From: a virus
IMG/VR virus record: IMGVR_UViG_3300043313_000919
Location: 1-42,218 of that record
DNA: 42,218 bases
Direction: 5' to 3' (one strand)
Both the position numbers and the translations under genes were made by a program. The notes under the pieces were generated by a model that worked only from the letters and a program-made list of their open reading frames with translations, was not told the DNA's origin and did no database searches. Positions 3,372 to 41,512 of this stretch are shown here, piece after piece (positions within the stretch are counted from its first letter, which is position 1; each line of letters starts with the position of its first letter).

Positions 3372-4816
3372 TGCCCAAACTGCTCGAGAAGGTCAAGACC
3401 AACCGCCGGCCGGCGGCTAAGTCGTGGGGTGGCAACCCGACCATCTGGGAGCAGGATGCGCTGCGCTTTGCGATGTTCGGCGCCGGCCCGTCGCTGGGCG
3501 ACACCGAGAGCATCGATCACGATTTCGTCAGCTACGTGCTGCAGGCGATCGGTGAGAATCCGATCATTTTCGGCGCCAAGGAGCGCCGGCGCCAGGTGTT
3601 CGCTCAAGCGAATTTCATGTGGCAGACCATGGAGAGCGGCCGCGGCGGCAAGCTCTCCTCAACCGCTGCTCTCGACGTGCTGCGCAAGCCGTGGCCTAAC
3701 GGCTCACTGCCCGAGCTCCTCGGCCGTATGGAGGGCGACGTCACTGCCGCCGGCAACTTCTACGCCACTTTGGTCGATGAGCGGGGCAAGATCGGTCGCG
3801 CCGCCAAGGGCAGCGCCACCGCGCGCATCTCGAGGCTGCGACCCGATTGGATCACCATCGTCATCGGGGTGCCCAAGGAGTCAGACGCGGACGTGTACGA
3901 CCCCCGCGCCCGCATAATCAGCTACCTGTACCGCACCCCGCGCAACCGCGAGCCGCTCACGCTGCTGCCCGAGGAGGTCTGCCACTACTCACCGGTGCCC
4001 GATCTGATCTCGAGATTCCGCGGCATGTCATGGCTTACCCCGGTGCTGCTTGAAATCCTGGCCGATAAGGCCGCCACGCAGCACAAGCTCAATTTCTTCG
4101 CCAACGGCGCCGTGCACGCCATGGCGATCAAGTACCCGCCGAACACCTCGGCGCAGCTGCTGCGTGAGTACAAGAAGCTGTACGACGAGGAGTATGCCGG
4201 CGTCGATAACCATTACAAGACCTTTCACATTGCCGGCGCCGACCCGATCCCGATGAGCGCCGATTTTCAGCAGCTCGACCTCAAACACACCCAAGGCGCC
4301 GGCGAAACACGCATCGCACTGGCCGCCGGCGTACCCGCGGCCATCCTCGGCATCTCCGAGGGCCTCGAGGGGTCGACGCTCAACCAGGGCAACTTTGGCG
4401 CAGCGCGCCGGCTGTTCGTTGACACCACGATCAGAGACCTCTGGTCAATGGCCGGGCCGGCGCTCGAGACGCTGTTCACGCCTCCGCAGCAAAATCAGCG
4501 CCTGTGGTACGACCCCCGCGATGTCCCGTTCCTGCGTGAGGACGCTAAGGACGACGCCGCAATCAAAAACCAGGATGCGCAAACACTCAAGGCGCTGGTC
4601 GAGGCTGGCTGGGATTGGAATGCGGCCGTCGAATACGTCACGACCGGCGATCTTGCCAATCTGAAAAATGCGCACTCGGGCCTATTGCCGGTGCAGCTGC
4701 AACCGCCAGGGCAAACCAATCAACCCCCGGCCGGTGCGCCGAGCGGGTCAAACAATTCACCTCAGAACGGAAGCGGGAGAAATGGCAACACGGTCGAAGC
4801 TGCAGCACGGCGTTGA
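3371..4816 (+). CDS. Portal protein
   Basis: A 481-aa protein of HK97/SPP1-type portal length that would form the dodecameric ring at the packaging vertex. Evidence is the position between TerL and the prohead protease plus family-like segments: an early 'NPIIFGAKERR' helix, the 'GNFYATLVDE' strand, an 'SWLTPVLLEILADKAATQHK' helix and a C-terminal half with 'GVPAAILGISEGLEGSTLNQG', typical of portals from actinophages. The last 40 residues are Gln/Pro/Asn-rich and probably disordered. The 3' end overlaps the protease gene by 35 bp. Confidence 0.92.
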   Translation: MPKLLEKVKTNRRPAAKSWGGNPTIWEQDALRFAMFGAGPSLGDTESIDHDFVSYVLQAIGENPIIFGAKERRRQVFAQANFMWQTMESGRGGKLSSTAALDVLRKPWPNGSLPELLGRMEGDVTAAGNFYATLVDERGKIGRAAKGSATARISRLRPDWITIVIGVPKESDADVYDPRARIISYLYRTPRNREPLTLLPEEVCHYSPVPDLISRFRGMSWLTPVLLEILADKAATQHKLNFFANGAVHAMAIKYPPNTSAQLLREYKKLYDEEYAGVDNHYKTFHIAGADPIPMSADFQQLDLKHTQGAGETRIALAAGVPAAILGISEGLEGSTLNQGNFGAARRLFVDTTIRDLWSMAGPALETLFTPPQQNQRLWYDPRDVPFLREDAKDDAAIKNQDAQTLKALVEAGWDWNAAVEYVTTGDLANLKNAHSGLLPVQLQPPGQTNQPPAGAPSGSNNSPQNGSGRNGNTVEAAARR

Positions 4817-9149: not shown

Positions 9150-10643
9150 ATGCCCCGTCTGCCAGGAGACCACGCCGCGCTCATCCGAGCGGAGCACGTC
9201 AAGGTTGGCGTGTTCGCAACCCTTGCATTCTGGGCGCTGCGTCGCTTCGGTCGAGGATTCCGCATCCTCAGCGCACACCCGATCACCGCGGCCGCGCTGG
9301 CCATCATCATCACCGGCCTCATCGCCAGCCCGTTGCTGCTTGCCGGCATCACCGGCGTCGGCGTCGCTGGCCTCGGTGTGTGGCGTTGGCGATCGCCGGC
9401 CAGCTATCACGAGGCGGTCAGCTTTCGGATACGCGGATTCATCCGCGGCCTCGCCGTGTATCGCCGCAAGTGGAAGCGGGCAATGCTGAAATGCGGCATC
9501 ATCACCGAGCACGAGGCGCCGCCGGTGCTGCTGAGTGTGAGCTCCTCGGCGAGGTCTGGCGTCGACACCCTTAGGGTGCGGATGCCCGACGGGCACAAGG
9601 TGCCGCGTTACGCCGAGCAGGCCTCGGTGCTGGGCCCGACGTTCGGTGGGTTCATCTGCCAGGTCAAGCCAATGCCCAATGTGCAGGGCCCGATTCAAAG
9701 ACGGCTGCCGATCGGGCCGCACGAATCGCTGGCCTACCGGCCGCAAGAGGTGCGCATACAGATCTCGACCCGCGACGTGCTGGTCAAGTCGGTACCACCA
9801 CCCGAGCTCGACGACGCCGACCCGTTCCCGGCCGAGGGGTTTGAGCTCGGCCTCAGGGGCGACTCGCCAACCTGGGAGCCGTCGCCGTTTCGGTTCAAGC
9901 TCAACGCGCCGACCATGATCGCCGGCGCCACCCAATCGGGCAAAACGTCGCTGGTGCGCACCCTGGTGCGTGCCATGTCACCGGGCATCGGTCAGGGCCT
10001 CATCCGCGCCGGCGGAATCAACCCCAAGGGTGACGCCACTCTCGCCGCGGCCGCGCATCTGTTCGATCGCTACATCGCCGGCGCAGCTGGTGGCGATGTC
10101 ACGATGTTTGAGGAGCCGATCACTCTCGAGCTCGAGACCTGGGTCAAGTTCCTGCGGTTCAGGGCCGAGGAGCTCGGCAGTGGTTTCGAGGAGTTTCGGC
10201 CGTCGCTTAAGTACCCGCTGCTGCCGCTGGTCATTGATGAGGGTGCGCTGCTGGTGTTCTACGCCACCCACCCCAAGCTGCGCCGGCGCATGCGTTCGGC
10301 CGTCTCGATTCTGGCCAGCCAGGGCGCCGGCCTCGGCGTCATCCCGGTGTTCCTGGTGCAAGACCCCCGCATCGAGATTGTGCAGATGCGTGAGTTGTTC
10401 ACCCGCAAAATTGCGATGCGTGGCGCGGGGTTGGTGTTGACGCACAATGGTGAGCTCGCCGATGACATCCCTGACGACGGCAAGCACCAGGGGTATGCGT
10501 TCCTCGAGGAGCAGGGGCACGCCGTGCTCACTCGCTGGCGAGCGGCGTACACCACCGTGCAGGACGTTCGGATGTGCGCACCGCACCCCGCGCTGCCACC
10601 GCTGGTCAGCGAGATGCGGCTCAGTCCGGTTGCAATGGCCTAA
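9150..10643 (+). CDS. FtsK/SpoIIIE/TraB-like DNA translocase, membrane-anchored
   Basis: A 497-aa protein with two hydrophobic helices at about residues 45-62 and 63-78, a 170-residue linker, and a RecA-type motor with Walker A GATQSGKT at 259-266 and Walker B LPLVIDE at 358-364. The layout matches the FtsK/SpoIIIE superfamily and the single-protein conjugation translocases of actinobacterial plasmids and integrative elements (TraB/TraSA), which pump double-stranded DNA through a hexamer. A C-terminal winged-helix gamma domain is not evident: only about 130 residues follow Walker B. The gene is inserted between two connector genes and sits 3 bases after the upstream stop, so it is expressed with head genes. 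A small hairpin follows at 10712-10740. Its role in the phage is unknown. Confidence 0.85.
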   Translation: MPRLPGDHAALIRAEHVKVGVFATLAFWALRRFGRGFRILSAHPITAAALAIIITGLIASPLLLAGITGVGVAGLGVWRWRSPASYHEAVSFRIRGFIRGLAVYRRKWKRAMLKCGIITEHEAPPVLLSVSSSARSGVDTLRVRMPDGHKVPRYAEQASVLGPTFGGFICQVKPMPNVQGPIQRRLPIGPHESLAYRPQEVRIQISTRDVLVKSVPPPELDDADPFPAEGFELGLRGDSPTWEPSPFRFKLNAPTMIAGATQSGKTSLVRTLVRAMSPGIGQGLIRAGGINPKGDATLAAAAHLFDRYIAGAAGGDVTMFEEPITLELETWVKFLRFRAEELGSGFEEFRPSLKYPLLPLVIDEGALLVFYATHPKLRRRMRSAVSILASQGAGLGVIPVFLVQDPRIEIVQMRELFTRKIAMRGAGLVLTHNGELADDIPDDGKHQGYAFLEEQGHAVLTRWRAAYTTVQDVRMCAPHPALPPLVSEMRLSPVAMA

Positions 10644-10764: not shown

Positions 10765-11085
10765 ATGGCGCTGCCTCCACAATTCCGCGTGCACAGCGTC
10801 ACCGTCGAAACGCAGACCGCTGAGAGTGGCCTCGGCGACCTGTACGCCGCGCCGGTGCGCGTCGCTGGGTTTCTCGATTACAACCGCCAGATTGTGCGAG
10901 CTCGAGACGGCGCCGAGGTGGTGTCCGAGGCCACGTTCCTCACCGACCTCGACGCTGTTGGCGTTTTTGTTCCCGACTCGAGGGTGACGCTGCCCGACAG
11001 TACGCAGACATACGTGCTCAGCGCCAGGCCGCGAGATGACGGCGGCATCACCGGCCTGGCGCATCTCGAGGTCACACTGCGTTGA
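10765..11085 (+). CDS. Head-tail stopper/closure protein
   Basis: A 106-aa beta-rich protein started from the ATG at 10765 behind AAGGGGG. Segments such as 'DGAEVVSEATFLTD', 'PDSRVTLPD' and a final 'GLAHLEVTL' match the small stopper proteins (SPP1 gp16/HK97 gp7-like) of actinophages, which close the connector after packaging. The upstream in-frame ATG at 10678 has no ribosome site and falls in the hairpin region, so it was rejected. Neighbours are the gp10-like and tail-terminator genes. Confidence 0.75.
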   Translation: MALPPQFRVHSVTVETQTAESGLGDLYAAPVRVAGFLDYNRQIVRARDGAEVVSEATFLTDLDAVGVFVPDSRVTLPDSTQTYVLSARPRDDGGITGLAHLEVTLR

Positions 11086-11098
11086 CAGGAGGCTCGCT

Positions 11099-11449
11099 AT
11101 GGCCGACGGCTGGACAGGGCACCTCGACGTAGGGCCCATACGCTCCGAGACACGCAGCGCCGCCGCTGAGGGCCTGCAGCAGGCCGCTGAGCGGGTGGGC
11201 GAGCGTTCCGATGCCGACGTGCCGGTGCAGACCGGCCGGCTGCGTGGATCTCGCCGCGTCAGCACCGACCGCCAGGCGCTCGAGGCCGTGGTCAGCTATG
11301 ACACCTCCTACGCCGTCGAGGTGCACGAGGACATGAGCAGGCACCACCCCGACGGCCACGCCAAATATCTCGAGGGTGCATTCAACGAATTGCGCGCCTC
11401 GCTGCTCGATGAGGTCGCCGCCAAGATCCGACAGGCGTGGGGTTCATGA
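11099..11449 (+). CDS. HK97 gp10-like head-tail/tail component
   Basis: A 116-aa protein of the HK97-gp10 family. The diagnostic part is 'DVPVQTGRLRGSRRV' followed by 'SYDTSYAVEVHEDM' and 'GHAKYLEGA'. Members act at the head-tail joint or as a tail component placed between stopper and terminator. Its start has a strong CAGGAGG site. The stop overlaps the ATG of the tail terminator by four bases. Confidence 0.85.
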   Translation: MADGWTGHLDVGPIRSETRSAAAEGLQQAAERVGERSDADVPVQTGRLRGSRRVSTDRQALEAVVSYDTSYAVEVHEDMSRHHPDGHAKYLEGAFNELRASLLDEVAAKIRQAWGS

Positions 11450-30421: not shown

Positions 30422-30433
30422 GAAGAGCGTTGC

Positions 30434-30588
30434 GAGGCGCGGCTAGGCGAGGCGTGGCGTGGCAAGGCGAGGTGTGGCAAGGCACGGCAATGCGAGGCTA
30501 GGCGAGGCCGGGCACGGCACGGCGAGGCGCGGCAAGGCGAGGCCGTGCAAGGCGCGGCCAGGCAGGGCAGGGCCGGGCGAGGCGGGGC
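30434..30588 (+). repeat. Pentamer repeat array, left arm (31 x NNGGC)
   Basis: Thirty-one consecutive 5-bp units fit NNGGC with few mismatches; common units are GAGGC, GCGGC, AAGGC, GTGGC and ACGGC. The third base onward (GGC) is nearly constant and the first two vary. No open frame with a ribosome site uses it. It begins 13 bases after the GDPD stop and, with the right arm, fills most of the gene-free stretch 30422-30773. Confidence 0.9.
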
Positions 30589-30645
30589 AGGGGTTTCACC
30601 AGCAGCGACGGTCTCCGATCGGGTTCGACTCCCGATGCTGCACGC
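30589..30645 (+). other. Unique core with tRNA T-arm-like hairpin between the pentamer arms
   Basis: A 57-base non-repetitive core contains ATCGGG (30618-30623), the loop TTCGACT (30624-30630) and CCCGAT (30631-30636); the loop matches the tRNA T-loop consensus TTCRANY exactly. A second stem pairs CAGC (30600-30603) with GCTG (30637-30640). A full tRNA cannot be folded, because acceptor and anticodon arms are missing. It may be the 3' end of a broken tRNA, an attachment-site-like core, or a structured RNA. Confidence 0.55.
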
Positions 30646-30735
30646 GAGGCGCGGCATGGCAGTGCGAGGCGAGGCCGGGCGCGGTGTGGCAAGGCCGGGC
30701 GCGGCGCGGCGCGGCGAGGCGAGGCAGGGCAGGGC
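30646..30735 (+). repeat. Pentamer repeat array, right arm (18 x NNGGC)
   Basis: Eighteen further units in the same orientation as the left arm, with runs of GCGGC and GAGGC. The array ends 38 bases before the RAMP-like gene, whose ribosome site GGAAGG lies just downstream at 30762-30767. Confidence 0.9.
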
Positions 30736-30773
30736 AAGGGGACAAATCAACTACAAGCCAGGGAAGGCAGGAC

Positions 30774-36825: not shown

Positions 36826-37106
36826 CGTGGGATGAGGCGCTCGCGTTGGCCAAGGCCAACGGTTACGTCGTGCTCAAGGAGACGTCATACCGCCGCGCGC
36901 AGGAGCGGCAGCGCATCGCTCAGGTGATTGCTGAGGATGAAAGACGCCGGCGCGAGAGTGCTGAGGAGTGGGCCCGCGGCTGCCTCTACGATGAGCGCCG
37001 CATCGCAGAGCGGTTGACGTTCGTCTATGGCGTCGCTCGAGCTCACGGCGCCACCGTCGAGGAGCTCGGCGCCGACCCGATCACCAGGCCACCGAGGCAG
37101 CGATGA
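36822..37106 (+). CDS. Hypothetical helical protein, 94 aa
   Basis: An almost wholly helical, Arg/Glu-rich protein ('YRRAQERQRIAQVIAEDERR'), likely coiled coil. It overlaps the zinc finger stop and the prim-pol start by four bases each, so it is coupled to replication genes. Unknown function. Confidence 0.65.
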   Translation: MTWDEALALAKANGYVVLKETSYRRAQERQRIAQVIAEDERRRRESAEEWARGCLYDERRIAERLTFVYGVARAHGATVEELGADPITRPPRQR

Positions 37107-37768
37107 CCGCGCCAACGGTGGCCGATCTCGAGCCAGCCCTGCAGCTGGCCATGAGCCTCGGCAATTGGCCCAAGGTGGCCGAGCTCGAGCAGCTGCTCGA
37201 CCAGGCGCAACAGCGAGAGCGCGTACCACCCCCGCCAATGGTGAGTGCGGCACTGTGGTACGCCCAGCAAGGCCTGCGAGTCTTCCCCTGCCTGCCACTC
37301 GACAAACGGCCGGCGACACCCAACGGATTCCTCGACGCCACCACCGACCCCGAGGTCATCGCCAGCTGGTGGGCCTACAGCGGCCGCGAGTTCAACGTCG
37401 GCATTGCCACCGGGCACCTGGTCGATGTCATCGACGTCGATCCCGCCGGCGTCCGCACCTGGGTGCAGATGCTCGAGGATGGCCTCGAGCTCGACGTCGT
37501 TGGATCTGCCACCACCCGCCGGCCGGCCGGCCTGCACTTCTATGTGCCGGCGAGCGGCATGACCACCGATCCGGGCGACCCCAACAGCGGGCACGCCGGC
37601 GTCGATTTCAAGGGCCTCGGCGGCTATGTGATCGCACCGCCGTCGGTGGTGGCGCTGCATGCGCATGAGGTGCCCGACGAGCTCAGCTGGCAGGGCCCGC
37701 CGCGTCAGATCAGATACCGCTGGCTGCGGCCGCTCGAGCTCGGGAGGTGGGCGCGTGGCCAGGCCTGA
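37103..37768 (+). CDS. Stand-alone prim-pol (AEP) domain
   Basis: A 221-aa archaeo-eukaryotic primase-polymerase catalytic domain. The metal motif is Asp111-x-Asp113 in 'VIDVDPAG', followed by His145 in 'AGLHFYV' and Asp168 in 'VDFKGLGGYVIAPPS'. It makes primers, and possibly extends them, for phage replication. Usually this domain is fused to a PriCT and helicase part; here it ends early, and those parts are in the ATPase gene at 37967. A zinc finger gene overlaps its 3' end by 14 bases and sits between the two halves. Confidence 0.9.
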   Translation: MTAPTVADLEPALQLAMSLGNWPKVAELEQLLDQAQQRERVPPPPMVSAALWYAQQGLRVFPCLPLDKRPATPNGFLDATTDPEVIASWWAYSGREFNVGIATGHLVDVIDVDPAGVRTWVQMLEDGLELDVVGSATTRRPAGLHFYVPASGMTTDPGDPNSGHAGVDFKGLGGYVIAPPSVVALHAHEVPDELSWQGPPRQIRYRWLRPLELGRWARGQA

Positions 37769-37949
37769 CTACCGCTCCGAATGTTTCGACTGCGCTTGGC
37801 GCTCCGCTCGGCAGACCACCGACGCTGCGCGGCGCCACGCCAAGCGCACCGGGCACACGGCGGCGTGCGTCGTTGAGGTCGACCACATCTATCGAGGCAA
37901 CCCCGCCGCCGCCGCACCCCCCAACCAGCCAGCCATACCAGGCACCTGA
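37755..37949 (+). CDS. C2H2-like mini zinc finger, 64 aa (copy 3)
   Basis: GTG start inside the prim-pol 3' end. It contains Cys-x2-Cys ('CFDC'), a Trp spacer and His-x5-His ('RHAKRTGH'), then 'ACVVEVDHIYRG'. It is related to copies 1 and 2 but has a shorter Cys spacing. Its place between prim-pol and ATPase suggests that it may attach to or regulate that complex. Confidence 0.72.
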   Translation: MARPDYRSECFDCAWRSARQTTDAARRHAKRTGHTAACVVEVDHIYRGNPAAAAPPNQPAIPGT

Positions 37950-37966
37950 GATCGGCAGCTGCCCCC

Positions 37967-39757
37967 ATGCCGGAAAACACCACCGCGCCGCCACCACGTA
38001 AGGCGCTGAGCGACTACTGGCACGCCGATAAGACGGGCGCACCCGCAGCCAGGTCGACGTCTCAGAACGGCGCACAGCCGCCGCTGAGCGTCGCCGGCGC
38101 CAACCCCACGTATGTGCAGAAGGCCGTCGACGCCGAGCTCGAGGCGCTGCGCTCGACACCCGAGGGCGGCCGCAACAATGCGCTCAACACCGCGGCGTAC
38201 AACCTCGGCCAGCTGGTCGGCGGCCGCGAGCTCACCGAGGCCGAGGTCGAGCAGCTGCTCAGCACGGTCGGCCGCGAGATCGGCCTAAGCGATCCCGAGA
38301 TATTCAAAACAGTCAACTCGGGAATTAGCGCCGGCGCCAAACAGCCTCGCACCGCGCCGCCGCCGACAATGTTGCACGTGCCGGCGGTCACGGTGCTAGA
38401 GAATGGCGCGGCACCAGATGAAACACCCGAGCGCACCTCATGGTGGCCTCAACCAATTGCCGAGCGTGCGGCTGCTTTTGCCGAGACGCCGGCACCCAAT
38501 CAATTGCGCCGCGACGACGGCGAGTGCCTTTTCTACTCGGGCAAGGTCAACGGCATTATCGGCGAATCGGAATCGGGCAAAAGTTGGATTGCGTTATTGG
38601 CAATAGTGCAGGCGCTTATCAGGGTCGAGCGGGTGCTCATCTTAGATTTCGAGGACTCACCGAGCTCGATCTATCGCCGGCTGCAGCAGCTGGGAGTCGA
38701 GGACGACAAGCTGCCCCTGGTGCACTACGCCGACCCCGACGAGGCGCTCGGCCTGCTGCAGCGCAACGACCTCATCGAGGCGCTCGGCGTCGGTTACAGC
38801 ATCATCGTGCTCGACGGGGTGAACGCGGCCATGACGCTGCTGGGCTACGACCTCAACAGCAACACCGACGCCACGCTGTTTGCGACCTTGCTGCTGCGGC
38901 CGCTGGCCCACACCGGCAGCTGCGTCATCACCGTCGATCACGTGCCCAAGAATCCCGACGGTCGCAACAAGGGCGGCATCGGCGCGCAGGCAAAGCGCGC
39001 AATGATCACCGGCTGCCAGCTGGTCGCCGAGGTCGCCGAGCCGTTCGGCAAGGGCCAAGACGGCGCCATCAAGCTGCTGGTCGATAAGGACAAAAACGGC
39101 ATTGTTCGAGGAATGTCGAGCGGCGGCAAATACGCCGGCAAGGCATTGGTTGAATCCAGCGCCGATAGCGTGCGCATTAAGATCTCGGCGCCCACCCTGA
39201 CCGACCGTGCAGAGCAGCCCGACACCCAAGCCGACTGGGCGCCCACAATTGTTATGGAAAAAATCTCGATGCTGCTCGAGAGGCTCACCGAGCCGTGCAG
39301 CTTCCGCTCAATCAAATTCGCCACCACCGGCAAGGATGAGACCATCCGCAAGGCGATCGATGTGCTGCATCGCCGCGGTTATATGGAGATCACCAGCGGG
39401 CCGCGAGGCTCGACGCTGCACCGCAGCGTGAGGCCATACCGGGCGCCCGATTCCGATACGACCCATGCCTCTGGCGCCTCCACCGTTCACCGTGTCCCGA
39501 GTGTGTCCCCGAGTGTGTCCGGACACGGTGAAGTGAATGTGTCGACCGTGTCCACCCAACCACCCCTCTACGAGGGGGGTGGACACGGGACACACTCACG
39601 GGTCGCCGGGACAGACGAAAAGCCAACCGTGTCCCGGGACACACTCGACATCCCTGACGGTTTCAGCCACTGCAACGACTGCGGCGAGTTGACCGCTGAG
39701 GCCGAGATCGAGGTCAACGCCGGGTACTGCAACAGCTGCCAACGGAGCGATGCCTAA
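37967..39757 (+). CDS. PriCT + RecA-fold replicative ATPase (RepA/DnaB-like)
   Basis: A 596-aa protein. Residues of about 50-130 look like a primase C-terminal (PriCT) linker domain ('EGGRNNALNTAAYNLGQLV' and 'SGISAGAKQPR'). Residues of about 185-420 form a RecA-type ATPase with Walker A GESESGKS at 199-206, Walker B IIVLD at 279-283 and a 'DHVPK' motif at 324-328. A winged helix follows near 430-490. Residues of about 497-565 are low complexity and overlie DNA repeats at 39492-39646. The end is a zinc ribbon ('CNDCGE', 'CNSCQ'). It probably unwinds DNA together with the prim-pol. ATG at 37967 has only a weak ribosome site. Confidence 0.85.
   Translation: MPENTTAPPPRKALSDYWHADKTGAPAARSTSQNGAQPPLSVAGANPTYVQKAVDAELEALRSTPEGGRNNALNTAAYNLGQLVGGRELTEAEVEQLLSTVGREIGLSDPEIFKTVNSGISAGAKQPRTAPPPTMLHVPAVTVLENGAAPDETPERTSWWPQPIAERAAAFAETPAPNQLRRDDGECLFYSGKVNGIIGESESGKSWIALLAIVQALIRVERVLILDFEDSPSSIYRRLQQLGVEDDKLPLVHYADPDEALGLLQRNDLIEALGVGYSIIVLDGVNAAMTLLGYDLNSNTDATLFATLLLRPLAHTGSCVITVDHVPKNPDGRNKGGIGAQAKRAMITGCQLVAEVAEPFGKGQDGAIKLLVDKDKNGIVRGMSSGGKYAGKALVESSADSVRIKISAPTLTDRAEQPDTQADWAPTIVMEKISMLLERLTEPCSFRSIKFATTGKDETIRKAIDVLHRRGYMEITSGPRGSTLHRSVRPYRAPDSDTTHASGASTVHRVPSVSPSVSGHGEVNVSTVSTQPPLYEGGGHGTHSRVAGTDEKPTVSRDTLDIPDGFSHCNDCGELTAEAEIEVNAGYCNSCQRSDA
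39492..39646. other. Iteron-like repeats in the ATPase gene, candidate origin of replication
   Basis: GTGTCC or its complement occurs nine times in about 150 bp: forward at 39492, 39503, 39515, 39548 and 39629; reverse at 39521, 39581, 39588 and 39637. The 10-mer GAGTGTGTCC is present forward at 39499 and 39511 and reversed at 39588 and 39637. Two perfect palindromes occur (39515-39526 and 39629-39642), plus a large stem-loop at 39546-39588. The encoded peptide is low complexity, so the DNA itself seems constrained. This resembles the lambda O-ori arrangement. Confidence 0.72.
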
Positions 39758-40110
39758 TGCAGAATCCGAAACACTGGCGCTCAAGCTGCCCGGCCTGTGG
39801 TGCGCGAAAAGATCAACCCTGCATCACTGCCGACGGATATACCGCTGAGCGAGTGCACTGGGGCCGGCCGTCGCTGTCGCGGCCGCTGGTCAAAATAGAA
39901 GGCCGCGGCAAAGAATTGGTTTTCTTTCTGCATGAGTTCACCGTCGTCGCCGACCTGGCCGGTCGCAATAATTCCAGCTTTGTCGCCAGCAAAGAGTGGC
40001 CGGTGCTATTCACCGGCACCAATATCTGCGGCGACTGTGGTGAGCCGTACGACCAGCGTGGATTGCTGCGGCGCTGCGGCGAGCGACACCCTGGTCGAGT
40101 CCGTGCATGA
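39757..40110 (+). CDS. Zinc-binding protein with two Cys clusters, 117 aa
   Basis: N-terminal 'CPACGARKDQPC' followed by a His and Arg form a zinc site common to small actinophage proteins. A C-terminal 'CGDCGEPYD' and a further Cys make a second knuckle. Between them is 'GKELVFFLHEFTVVADLAG'. The ATG overlaps the ATPase stop by one base. Role unknown; nucleic-acid binding is plausible. Confidence 0.72.
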   Translation: MQNPKHWRSSCPACGARKDQPCITADGYTAERVHWGRPSLSRPLVKIEGRGKELVFFLHEFTVVADLAGRNNSSFVASKEWPVLFTGTNICGDCGEPYDQRGLLRRCGERHPGRVRA

Positions 40111-40472
40111 GCCGAGATGCTCGCGGCCGCGCCTGCCGGCGATGTGGCGATCCGATCCTGCGCGGTCTATCCGATGACTGGTGCGCCGCCGAGGTCGAGG
40201 TCAACCCCACCCCGCTCAACGTGTTCGGCGAGATGCTGGCGCGTATCGCTCACCTTGGCACCTATGACCTGCACCGCGAGGGCGACCACCTCAGGCTGCA
40301 TAGCCGAGATCATTGGCAGATCGCTGGCCGGCCGGCCGGCATTTTGGTGTACTGCTGGCGGGTCGATGTTTTGGCTGAGCACCGCTGCGGCTGGGTGTTC
40401 CCTGCTGCCCCGTCGTTGCTCAGATCGCGCACCGTCAGTACCGGTGACCTCGATGGGCCACCACCGTTTTGA
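40107..40472 (+). CDS. Hypothetical protein with Cys motif, 121 aa
   Basis: It opens with 'CRRCGDPI' and 'DDWC', suggesting a short zinc knuckle, then a mixed domain with 'LHREGDHLRLHSRDHWQIAG'. Function is unknown. The ATG overlaps the preceding stop by four bases. Confidence 0.65.
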   Translation: MSRDARGRACRRCGDPILRGLSDDWCAAEVEVNPTPLNVFGEMLARIAHLGTYDLHREGDHLRLHSRDHWQIAGRPAGILVYCWRVDVLAEHRCGWVFPAAPSLLRSRTVSTGDLDGPPPF

Positions 40473-40480
40473 GGAGAGCC

Positions 40481-40765
40481 ATGCCAGCTGCACACAAGGA
40501 AACCCACCCCGACACCCCGGCCGATGCCGGCATTGTCAGGTCGCGCCCGTGGGTTGCCGAAAAAAAGATTAGCCGGAATTATCCGGTCTGCCCGCACTGC
40601 GCCGACGGTCGGTTAACCTTCCATTGCAAAACACTGCAGGCCTGCACCTGGCTGCTATGCGATGACTGCGGCGCGCTTATTGATCCGAGTGATTGGTCGC
40701 ATGCATTTAACCGGGGTGGATTAGCGCACGGCCGCACATTGTTTAAGCACTGCTCAGGAAAATAA
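40481..40765 (+). CDS. Zinc-ribbon protein, 94 aa
   Basis: Four cysteines arranged as 'CPHC' and 'CDDCG' around a beta region ('LTFHCKTLQACTWLL') form a compact zinc ribbon, and the end contains 'HAFNRGGLAHG'. The ATG at 40481 is eight bases after the previous gene, behind GAGGAG. Confidence 0.7.
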   Translation: MPAAHKETHPDTPADAGIVRSRPWVAEKKISRNYPVCPHCADGRLTFHCKTLQACTWLLCDDCGALIDPSDWSHAFNRGGLAHGRTLFKHCSGK

Positions 40766-40774
40766 GGGGAGGCA

Positions 40775-41512
40775 ATGCCGCAAGATCGCACGTGTGCCAC
40801 ATGCCCGAGGCCGATGCGGGCCAATAACCTCGCAATCTGCCGGCATTGTGAAAATGAGCTCAGGCGCCGATTAGGCGACCAGGCTGCGCACCGTGACGAC
40901 CTCGAGCTCGAGCACCGCCGCCAGGTACGCAAGGCCGAGGCCACCCGCCGCGCCGGCCTCAGCTTCCCGATCCTGTTTGTCGAGCAGGCCTCGCGGCTGC
41001 TCAAGCGCCAGCTGGCGCTGCTCGAGATGTGGGTCTGGCGCCTCATCGACCGTGACCTCAGGCGCAAGCGCCGCGTGCAGGGGTACACCGTGATGCGGCC
41101 GGCGCTTACCATGCCGAGAGCTCGCAGCGTGCCCGTGTTCGGCGCCTGGCTGGCGACGCACCTGTCGGTGCTGCGCCGGCGCGTCGATGCGGCCGACATG
41201 CTGCGCGAGCTCCGCGCGCTCGACGCCGAGATCATCACCCTCATCGATCTGCCGGCAATGCGCACCAACCTGCGCGTTGGGCCATGCCCCAAGAAGTGGC
41301 CGACCGACGACGGCGAGCAGCACTGCCCCGGTGAGGTATTCGCCTACGTGCCGGCCGACGAGACCGCACCCGCCTACATGCGCTGCGACGCGTGCGGTGC
41401 AGAATGGCCATCGAGATACTGGTTTGACGCCGGTGACGACATCATCGCCAGGGCGCTCGAGCTTGACCATCAGCGCGAACTGGCCGAGGAGATGACCAAG
41501 GGGGTTGCGTGA
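40775..41512 (+). CDS. Zinc-binding helical protein, 245 aa
   Basis: N-terminal 'CATCPRPM' and 'CRHCENEL' make a zinc knuckle. Residues 40-190 are long helices, among them 'VEQASRLLKRQLALLEMWVW'. The C-terminal 'GPCPKKW', 'HCPGE' and 'CDACGAEWP' form a second ribbon. This architecture recurs in actinophage early regions as an unnamed family. It may bridge nucleic acid and protein partners; that is inference. Its stop overlaps the next GTG by four bases. Confidence 0.72.
   Translation: MPQDRTCATCPRPMRANNLAICRHCENELRRRLGDQAAHRDDLELEHRRQVRKAEATRRAGLSFPILFVEQASRLLKRQLALLEMWVWRLIDRDLRRKRRVQGYTVMRPALTMPRARSVPVFGAWLATHLSVLRRRVDAADMLRELRALDAEIITLIDLPAMRTNLRVGPCPKKWPTDDGEQHCPGEVFAYVPADETAPAYMRCDACGAEWPSRYWFDAGDDIIARALELDHQRELAEEMTKGVA

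Follow-up and report, generated by a model that had tools for sequence, protein, structure and literature searches.

Embedded near the 3′ end of a replicative ATPase gene, and lying within its open reading frame (ORF), the virus record analyzed here (42,218 bases, called the window when the whole stretch is meant) carries a dense field of short repeats arranged around a stem-loop. From its sequence and that of its relatives, we are confident in reading this field as an iteron-type phage origin inside the gene of its own initiator-helicase, which makes it very probably the site at which the phage starts copying its DNA.

The field (Table 1) contains nine copies of GTGTCC/GGACAC in 151 bp (39492 to 39642), the number that an earlier note on this DNA had reported for about 150 bp. 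Forward copies start at 39492, 39503, 39515, 39548, and 39629, and reversed copies start at 39521, 39581, 39588, and 39637; the other 42 kb of the window contains eight more. The 10-mer GAGTGTGTCC, which the note had described as present twice forward and twice reversed, occurs four times in the window in just these orientations, always in the field, and ACCGTGTCC also has four copies, every one inside the field. Both of the perfect palindromes it had listed are present, and its stem-loop with an inner hairpin is real when compared with shuffles, with an outer stem that we measured as slightly longer than it had stated. The C-run/TA/G-run core of this stem-loop is CCCCTCTACGAGGGGGG. The overlying peptide is indeed of low complexity and lies between the predicted winged helix and a CxxC...CxxC tail.

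Table 1. Positions of the genes, protein parts, and repeat elements in the window
Feature	Position	Strand	Basis
Prim-Pol (AEP primase-polymerase), 221 aa	37103-37768	+	Pfam PF09250, E=3.7e-29
Replicative RecA-fold ATPase with C-terminal winged helix, 596 aa (P0001)	37967-39757	+	PF13481 AAA_25, E=1.5e-9
Winged helix, residues about 427-487, proposed iteron-binding domain	39245-39427	+	AlphaFold2 model
Predicted recognition helix, residues 457-469, including Arg461	39335-39373	+	AlphaFold2 model
Iteron and hairpin field, proposed replication origin (in-ORF version)	39490-39647		Repeats, fold, shuffles, relatives
Three forward GTGTCC iterons (39492, 39503, 39515), spacing 11 and 12 bp	39492-39520	+	Count
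Perfect palindrome GTGTCCGGACAC (forward and reversed iteron)	39515-39526		Sequence
Forward iteron directly 5′ of hairpin	39548-39553	+	Count
Central stem-loop, outer stem 12 bp (39546-39557/39577-39588)	39546-39588		DNA fold, z=-5.4
Inner hairpin CCCTC/GAGGG (39564-39568/39572-39576), apex loop TAC (39569-39571)	Within stem-loop		DNA fold
Two reversed GGACAC iterons (39581, 39588), 3′ of hairpin	39581-39593	-	Count
Perfect palindrome GTGTCCCGGGACAC (forward and reversed iteron)	39629-39642		Sequence
CxxC...CxxC tail (zinc-ribbon-like), C-terminal, 3′ of field	39671-39757	+	Translation; compared with relatives

Codon-preserving shuffles, the comparison that the earlier note had proposed, do not match this density. 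With the whole gene as the source of synonymous codons, 0 of 10,000 shuffles reached nine copies (maximum, 5), and when only the segment's own codons were shuffled, the maximum was 8 copies of GTGTCC/GGACAC, which is still below nine. With any 6-mer allowed, 0 of 1,000 codon-preserving shuffles matched the window field. The same any-6-mer test was applied to other in-ORF elements from the relatives described below, and 11 of 17 (window included) were never matched in 1,000 shuffles; L306, L309, and L311 were matched once or twice, and matches were more frequent for L277 (7 per 1,000), L215 (25 per 1,000), and L307 (67 per 1,000). At the 6-mer level, the field is the densest in the window, and at the 7-mer level (5 copies), it ranks below a low-complexity stretch at 30.43 to 30.74 kb (7 copies of GCCTCGC). 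Over about 300 bp, that stretch (30430 to 30740) consists of GC-rich 5-bp units of degenerate sequence (RGGCN), broken near 30590 to 30645 by a short sequence that resembles a tRNA T arm; ARAGORN found no tRNA in the window.

The assignment of the ATPase to the RecA fold is based not only on the Pfam match but also on a RecA profile and on fold matches. An AlphaFold2 model of residues 154 to 508 (mean pLDDT, 91) combines a RecA core with a well-formed winged helix, the secondary structure of which is helix 274 to 286, helix 293 to 299, helix 304 to 316, strand 320 to 324, and strand 330 to 334 (model numbering, to which 153 is added). In a PDB fold search with the whole model, RecA/KaiC cores dominate the matches, and the winged helix was not placed by this search. 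Among the relatives, strong conservation of the RecA part contrasts with variability of the winged helix, as is expected if recognition changes with the iteron word. Residues from about 45 to 130 match primase proteins, and it is only from these matches that we infer a PriCT region; no PriCT Pfam model was reached. The description of the system in the earlier note as a PriCT-RecA ATPase with a separate Prim-Pol is thus borne out for the RecA part and for the Prim-Pol, the gene for which is separate in the window, with one short ORF between it and the ATPase gene; the PriCT part stays at the level of these primase matches. In most relatives, the Prim-Pol instead lies in a long open frame (mostly 690 to 1,175 aa) with enough room to hold the ATPase too. 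The Pfam model detects Prim-Pol in 25 of 28 related virus records; tblastn with the window Prim-Pol detected it in only 6 of 56 relatives, a count that reflects the limited sensitivity of that search. A DnaB-type helicase (DnaB_C) was found in 0 of 29 records.

A single-protein pattern search and a DNA similarity search found no relative. An alignment-based search of IMG/VR with the ATPase protein detected 421 viral relatives, of which 80 were kept (L212 to L291; 38 to 53% identity), and a search of GTDB genomes added 23 loci (L292 to L314), for which the named records are from Actinomycetota or uncultured organisms. Although these 80 viral relatives were found without use of the repeat, the densest repeat falls 0 to 250 bp past the winged helix in nearly every locus. 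Among 107 loci from viruses, host genomes, and two plasmids that extend 300 bp or more downstream, 101 have their densest 7-mer repeat, judged over the whole locus, at the 3′ end of the ATPase gene, 3 have a tie, and in 3 this place ranks lower; without the four loci that had first been picked up through the word, the count is 98 of 103. The window is itself among the three lower loci because its full 42 kb includes the low-complexity stretch at 30.4 kb. The earlier note had asked whether relatives with the same protein lack the repeats, and these counts indicate that, as a rule, they do not. Two loci (L300 and L312) encode a related ATPase and have no repeat field after the ATPase gene; they may be decayed prophage modules or have their origin elsewhere.

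Comparison of these loci reveals a common layout built around a hairpin, the two arms of which are a C-run and a G-run, with TA in the apex between them. Iterons of 6 to 8 bp, 10 to 11 bp apart, flank this hairpin, most of them forward on its 5′ side and reversed on its 3′ side. Like-oriented iterons are most often 10 bp (70 cases) or 11 bp (60 cases) apart. Their orientation is a tendency only, with 196 forward and 85 reversed iterons before the hairpin and 41 forward and 62 reversed iterons after it. The iteron word varies by clade (GTGTCC, TCGTCC, GGTTCC, CTTTCCC, TTGACCG, and others), so that GTGTCC is a clade-specific word rather than a family-wide one, and the most constant part of the element is the central hairpin, with the consensus CCCC(C/T)C-TA-nGRGGGG. 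A strict form of the hairpin pattern is found in 47 of 72 nonredundant elements, compared with a mean of 5.4 in shuffles, and most of the elements that fail it have a variant with the apex TA; a few do not (MinS1, L234, L296, L299, and L015). The TA was built into the search pattern, but other central dinucleotides match fewer elements, the next best being CT (41 elements), which overlaps CTA. The hairpin core is present in 77 of the 107 elements (about 48 kb), versus 28 matches in 765 kb elsewhere.

The coding status of the element is not constant. Of the 71 nonredundant elements that were classified, 20 sit within the ORF, 11 span the stop codon, and 40 come after it. Those within the ORF have iterons in mixed reading frames, their linker peptide is of low complexity as it is in the window, and the protein tails that follow the field differ from each other. 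Because most fields are noncoding and just past the stop codon and those in ORFs use mixed frames, it is the DNA rather than the peptide that is conserved, as the earlier note had surmised from the window.

The reverse approach, in which 2.9 million viral contigs were scanned for the DNA word alone, mostly returned unrelated repeats, and loci were kept only if they encoded a homologous ATPase. Contigs L018, L081, L170, and L015 encode ATPases 32 to 35% identical to that of the window, and L055, a truncated contig, encodes one that is 28% identical. A GTGTCC field is in the matching place inside the ORF in L170 and just past the stop codon in L018, L081, and L055; L015 has a small field of GCGTCC plus GTGTCC copies. 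Outside this family, three lower-GC virus contigs (L151, L178, and L182) encode a different RecA-type ATPase with a winged-helix-like part after it and have GGACAC/GTGTCC fields in the C-terminal coding part, which is a like layout in a distant family. Two further contigs (L040 and L058) encode a phage replication-type protein with tandem GGACAC in midgene (peptide DTLTDTPTDTPTDT), another possible in-coding origin.

Several named phages that were found by protein alone have related ATPases and repeat fields at or just past the stop codon, made up of other words: 11 copies of TCGTCC in MinS1, 12 of GGTTCA in Dagobah, 7 of ATCGGCA in P8625, and 6 of CCTCCAC in prophiGD05-1. MinS1 (L202; MZ923504.1) is recorded as a Microcystis phage, yet it has an Lsr2-family gene in addition to the ATPase/TCGTCC module, for which the named bacterial hosts are Actinomycetota, and its host assignment merits a check. 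In prophiGD05-1 (L207), a Mycobacteroides prophage, the segment at 4563 to 4800, past a different ATPase gene, has CCTCCAC/GTGGAGG palindromes that flank an AT-rich stretch, and this looks like a conventional origin. Plasmids also have the arrangement. Kineococcus pKRAD02 (L210; 12.9 kb) encodes a related ATPase, and the 3′ end of that gene holds a GGGAACC field; the related ATPase gene of Streptomyces p-XQ-29-C, a linear plasmid of 7.9 kb, has a CCTGCCC field at its end and beyond. No match to other known replication-initiator families was found among the scanned proteins of these two plasmids (a subset of their ORFs). A second field in pKRAD02 (CACGGCG, 6 copies, about 10821 to 11100) lies near a ParA gene (9484 to 10275) and is probably a centromere, separate from the origin-like field.

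We also compared winged-helix residues with the iteron words. Global covariation of the winged helix and the iteron was not significant (486 of 5,000 permutations). Of 866 residue tests, the top result came from residue 461, which is Arg with G[T/C]CC words (nominal p=9e-5, rising to about 0.08 with Bonferroni correction), followed by residue 450, which is also in the winged helix. The association of Arg461 with the word is suggestive only. Winged helices of Prim-Pol fusion proteins have been proposed to recognize origins (PMC5862659).

Repeats of this kind near a replication gene could have other functions. Direct repeats downstream of repA act as parS in mycobacteriophages Miko and Rachaly (PMC7157519), and by this precedent the field might be a centromere or another partition or incompatibility site. 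However, ParA was found in 0 of 25 tested records, including the window, and ParB_N was found in only 2, and the CACGGCG field of pKRAD02 by the ParA gene is separate and far from the GGGAACC field; we give a centromere an outside chance at best. Phased short repeats are also found in operators, and a rep protein may well autoregulate, which would make the field an operator array for the ATPase or a repressor, or else a stoperator set. No tool result favors this, and a search of 39300 to 39900 (sigma-70 pattern only) revealed no promoter-like site. In addition, the field follows the rep gene or sits within its ORF, and the confinement of GAGTGTGTCC and ACCGTGTCC to the field is unlike the dispersal of stoperators. 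We consider an operator array or stoperator set very unlikely to be what the field is, but autoregulation may occur on top of origin function.

The stability of the hairpin and its location just past the stop codon in many relatives would suit an RNA element, or a terminator or attenuator formed by a transcript hairpin. Against this, the central hairpin is not followed by a T-run, the terminator scan gave only two sites, both on the minus strand and at other positions, Rfam has no match in 37000 to 41000, the element is inside the ORF in 20 lineages, and phased repeats flank the hairpin, all of which leave an RNA element a remote prospect. Inverted repeats are used at recombination attachment and packaging sites too, but no tyrosine integrase was found in the window record (which may be incomplete), only 13 of 25 tested records have one, and the field follows the ATPase gene on two plasmids as well; a site of either type is hardly conceivable here. 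The low complexity of the linker in the window and in the in-ORF relatives could suggest that codon and residue bias in a linker peptide gave rise to the repeats as a by-product, an explanation to which we give practically no chance. The codon-preserving shuffles never reach the window count, and the repeats are noncoding in most relatives and in mixed frames in the coding ones, which rules out linker bias as the sole cause.

An iteron origin has counterparts among known replicons, and among those that have been tested, the replication locus of Streptomyces plasmid pWTY27 appears to be the closest analogue in gene order and type of repeat. This theta plasmid requires repA, repB (the product of which is predicted to be a primase/polymerase), and an iteron region of 300 bp, and in footprinting, RepA specifically bound a region with GTGGGAAC/TTCCCAC repeats and left the loop of an inverted repeat unprotected (PMC3583192). 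The locus also propagates in linear form, from which bidirectional replication was inferred, and pFP1 and pFP11 are cited beside it as akin (PMC3583192). The published coordinates suggest that the iteron region follows repA (PMC3583192). As in the window, a primase/polymerase gene and a replication gene (repA in pWTY27) adjoin short repeats that run in both orientations, a long inverted repeat is present, and GTGGGAAC is the same kind of repeat as the GTTCCC/GGTTCC of the relatives. Unlike the window, pWTY27 is a plasmid rather than a phage, has a noncoding iteron region, and encodes a RepA that was left as "hypothetical."

The Rep protein of SaPI and Cch2 of SCCmec bind iterons just downstream of their own genes via a C-terminal domain, and in SCCmec, priming by a partner enzyme prefers origin sequence, which we count as a likeness (PMC7581432). 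The window has the same order of helicase domains, with an initiator helicase, a C-terminal domain that is predicted to bind DNA, and iterons directly 3′ (in many relatives) or at the 3′ end of the gene. The conserved central C-run/TA/G-run hairpin sets the present element apart, as does an origin that may be in coding sequence. The window ATPase is of the AAA_25/RecA fold, and we found no family that it has in common with SaPI Rep or Cch2; we place it beside them for its probable mode of action and do not count it as a member of their group. In Sulfolobus plasmid pRN1, a stem-loop 3′ of a Prim-Pol/helicase/winged-helix gene is required (PMC4234260). Prim-Pol, helicase, winged helix, and a stem-loop just 3′ of the rep gene are thus shared with the present system, but pRN1 is an archaeal plasmid with an SF3 helicase and a stem-loop of about 100 nt without iterons.

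The earlier note had drawn a parallel with phage lambda, in which an iteron origin is likewise within the coding sequence of the initiator. Lambda O, an initiator in its own right, recruits host DnaB, whereas the proposed initiator here is the ATPase itself. No lambda O model is among the Pfam/PHROG matches of the ATPase, and only a minority of relatives have the field inside the gene (20 of 71), so that the comparison holds for place and not for kinship of the initiator. RSF1010 (IncQ) has a RecA-fold hexameric helicase, a dedicated primase, oriV iterons, and ssi hairpin priming sites, and thus resembles the present system in its parts. In RSF1010, these are divided among three proteins (RepA, RepB′, and RepC) and separate sites, in contrast to the window, where a single protein has both the ATPase and the proposed iteron-binding domain and the hairpin and iterons form one compact element.

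If the field is the origin, the ATPase's own winged helix is most likely what binds the iterons. The C-terminal winged helix of the RecA-fold ATPase would bind GTGTCC iterons about one helical turn apart, which would give a one-sided array on either flank of the hairpin. The converging arrays would set ATPase assemblies on both sides of the C-run/TA/G-run hairpin, which would then open or extrude. An ATPase ring would load and unwind the DNA, and on the strand thus exposed, the adjacent Prim-Pol would synthesize the first primer; the TA apex is a possible but speculative priming site.

In its phased repeats (nine copies in the window; 10 to 11 bp) and its location by a rep gene (101 of 107), the element is like other iteron origins, but an AT-rich unwinding region beside the repeats is lacking. 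None is next to the field in the window, and across 47 elements, no AT peak stands out (the mean AT content, taken relative to each locus, is -0.07 at the hairpin itself and reaches +0.07 at most in its surroundings). There is also no clear switch in GC skew across the window. These two absences are among the main weaknesses of the origin reading. Origins usually have an AT-rich region, although it is not considered a universal feature, and here the hairpin may stand in for it.

We found no description of the element in the literature searched, a search that most subscription papers were beyond. A bolder proposal, which we make tentatively and regard as doubtful, is that it represents a widespread new class of compact origin, shared by phages, prophages, and plasmids. 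The iterons, specific to each clade, would draw a (Prim-Pol-)RecA-winged-helix initiator to the near-constant C-run/TA/G-run hairpin; this hairpin, in place of an AT-rich region, would be the opening site, and the Prim-Pol primer would start at its TA apex. The origin reading itself would predict, from sequence alone, the replication origin for a large group of phages (the viral relatives detected by the ATPase search). It would also give a minimal replicon for vectors, consisting of the Prim-Pol, the ATPase-winged helix, and about 160 bp of DNA, and a natural set of matched winged-helix/iteron pairs from which DNA-binding specificity may be read out. Some lineages, moreover, have this cis element inside the reading frame and others have it outside, which makes it a clear example of coding sequence shaped by a DNA signal.
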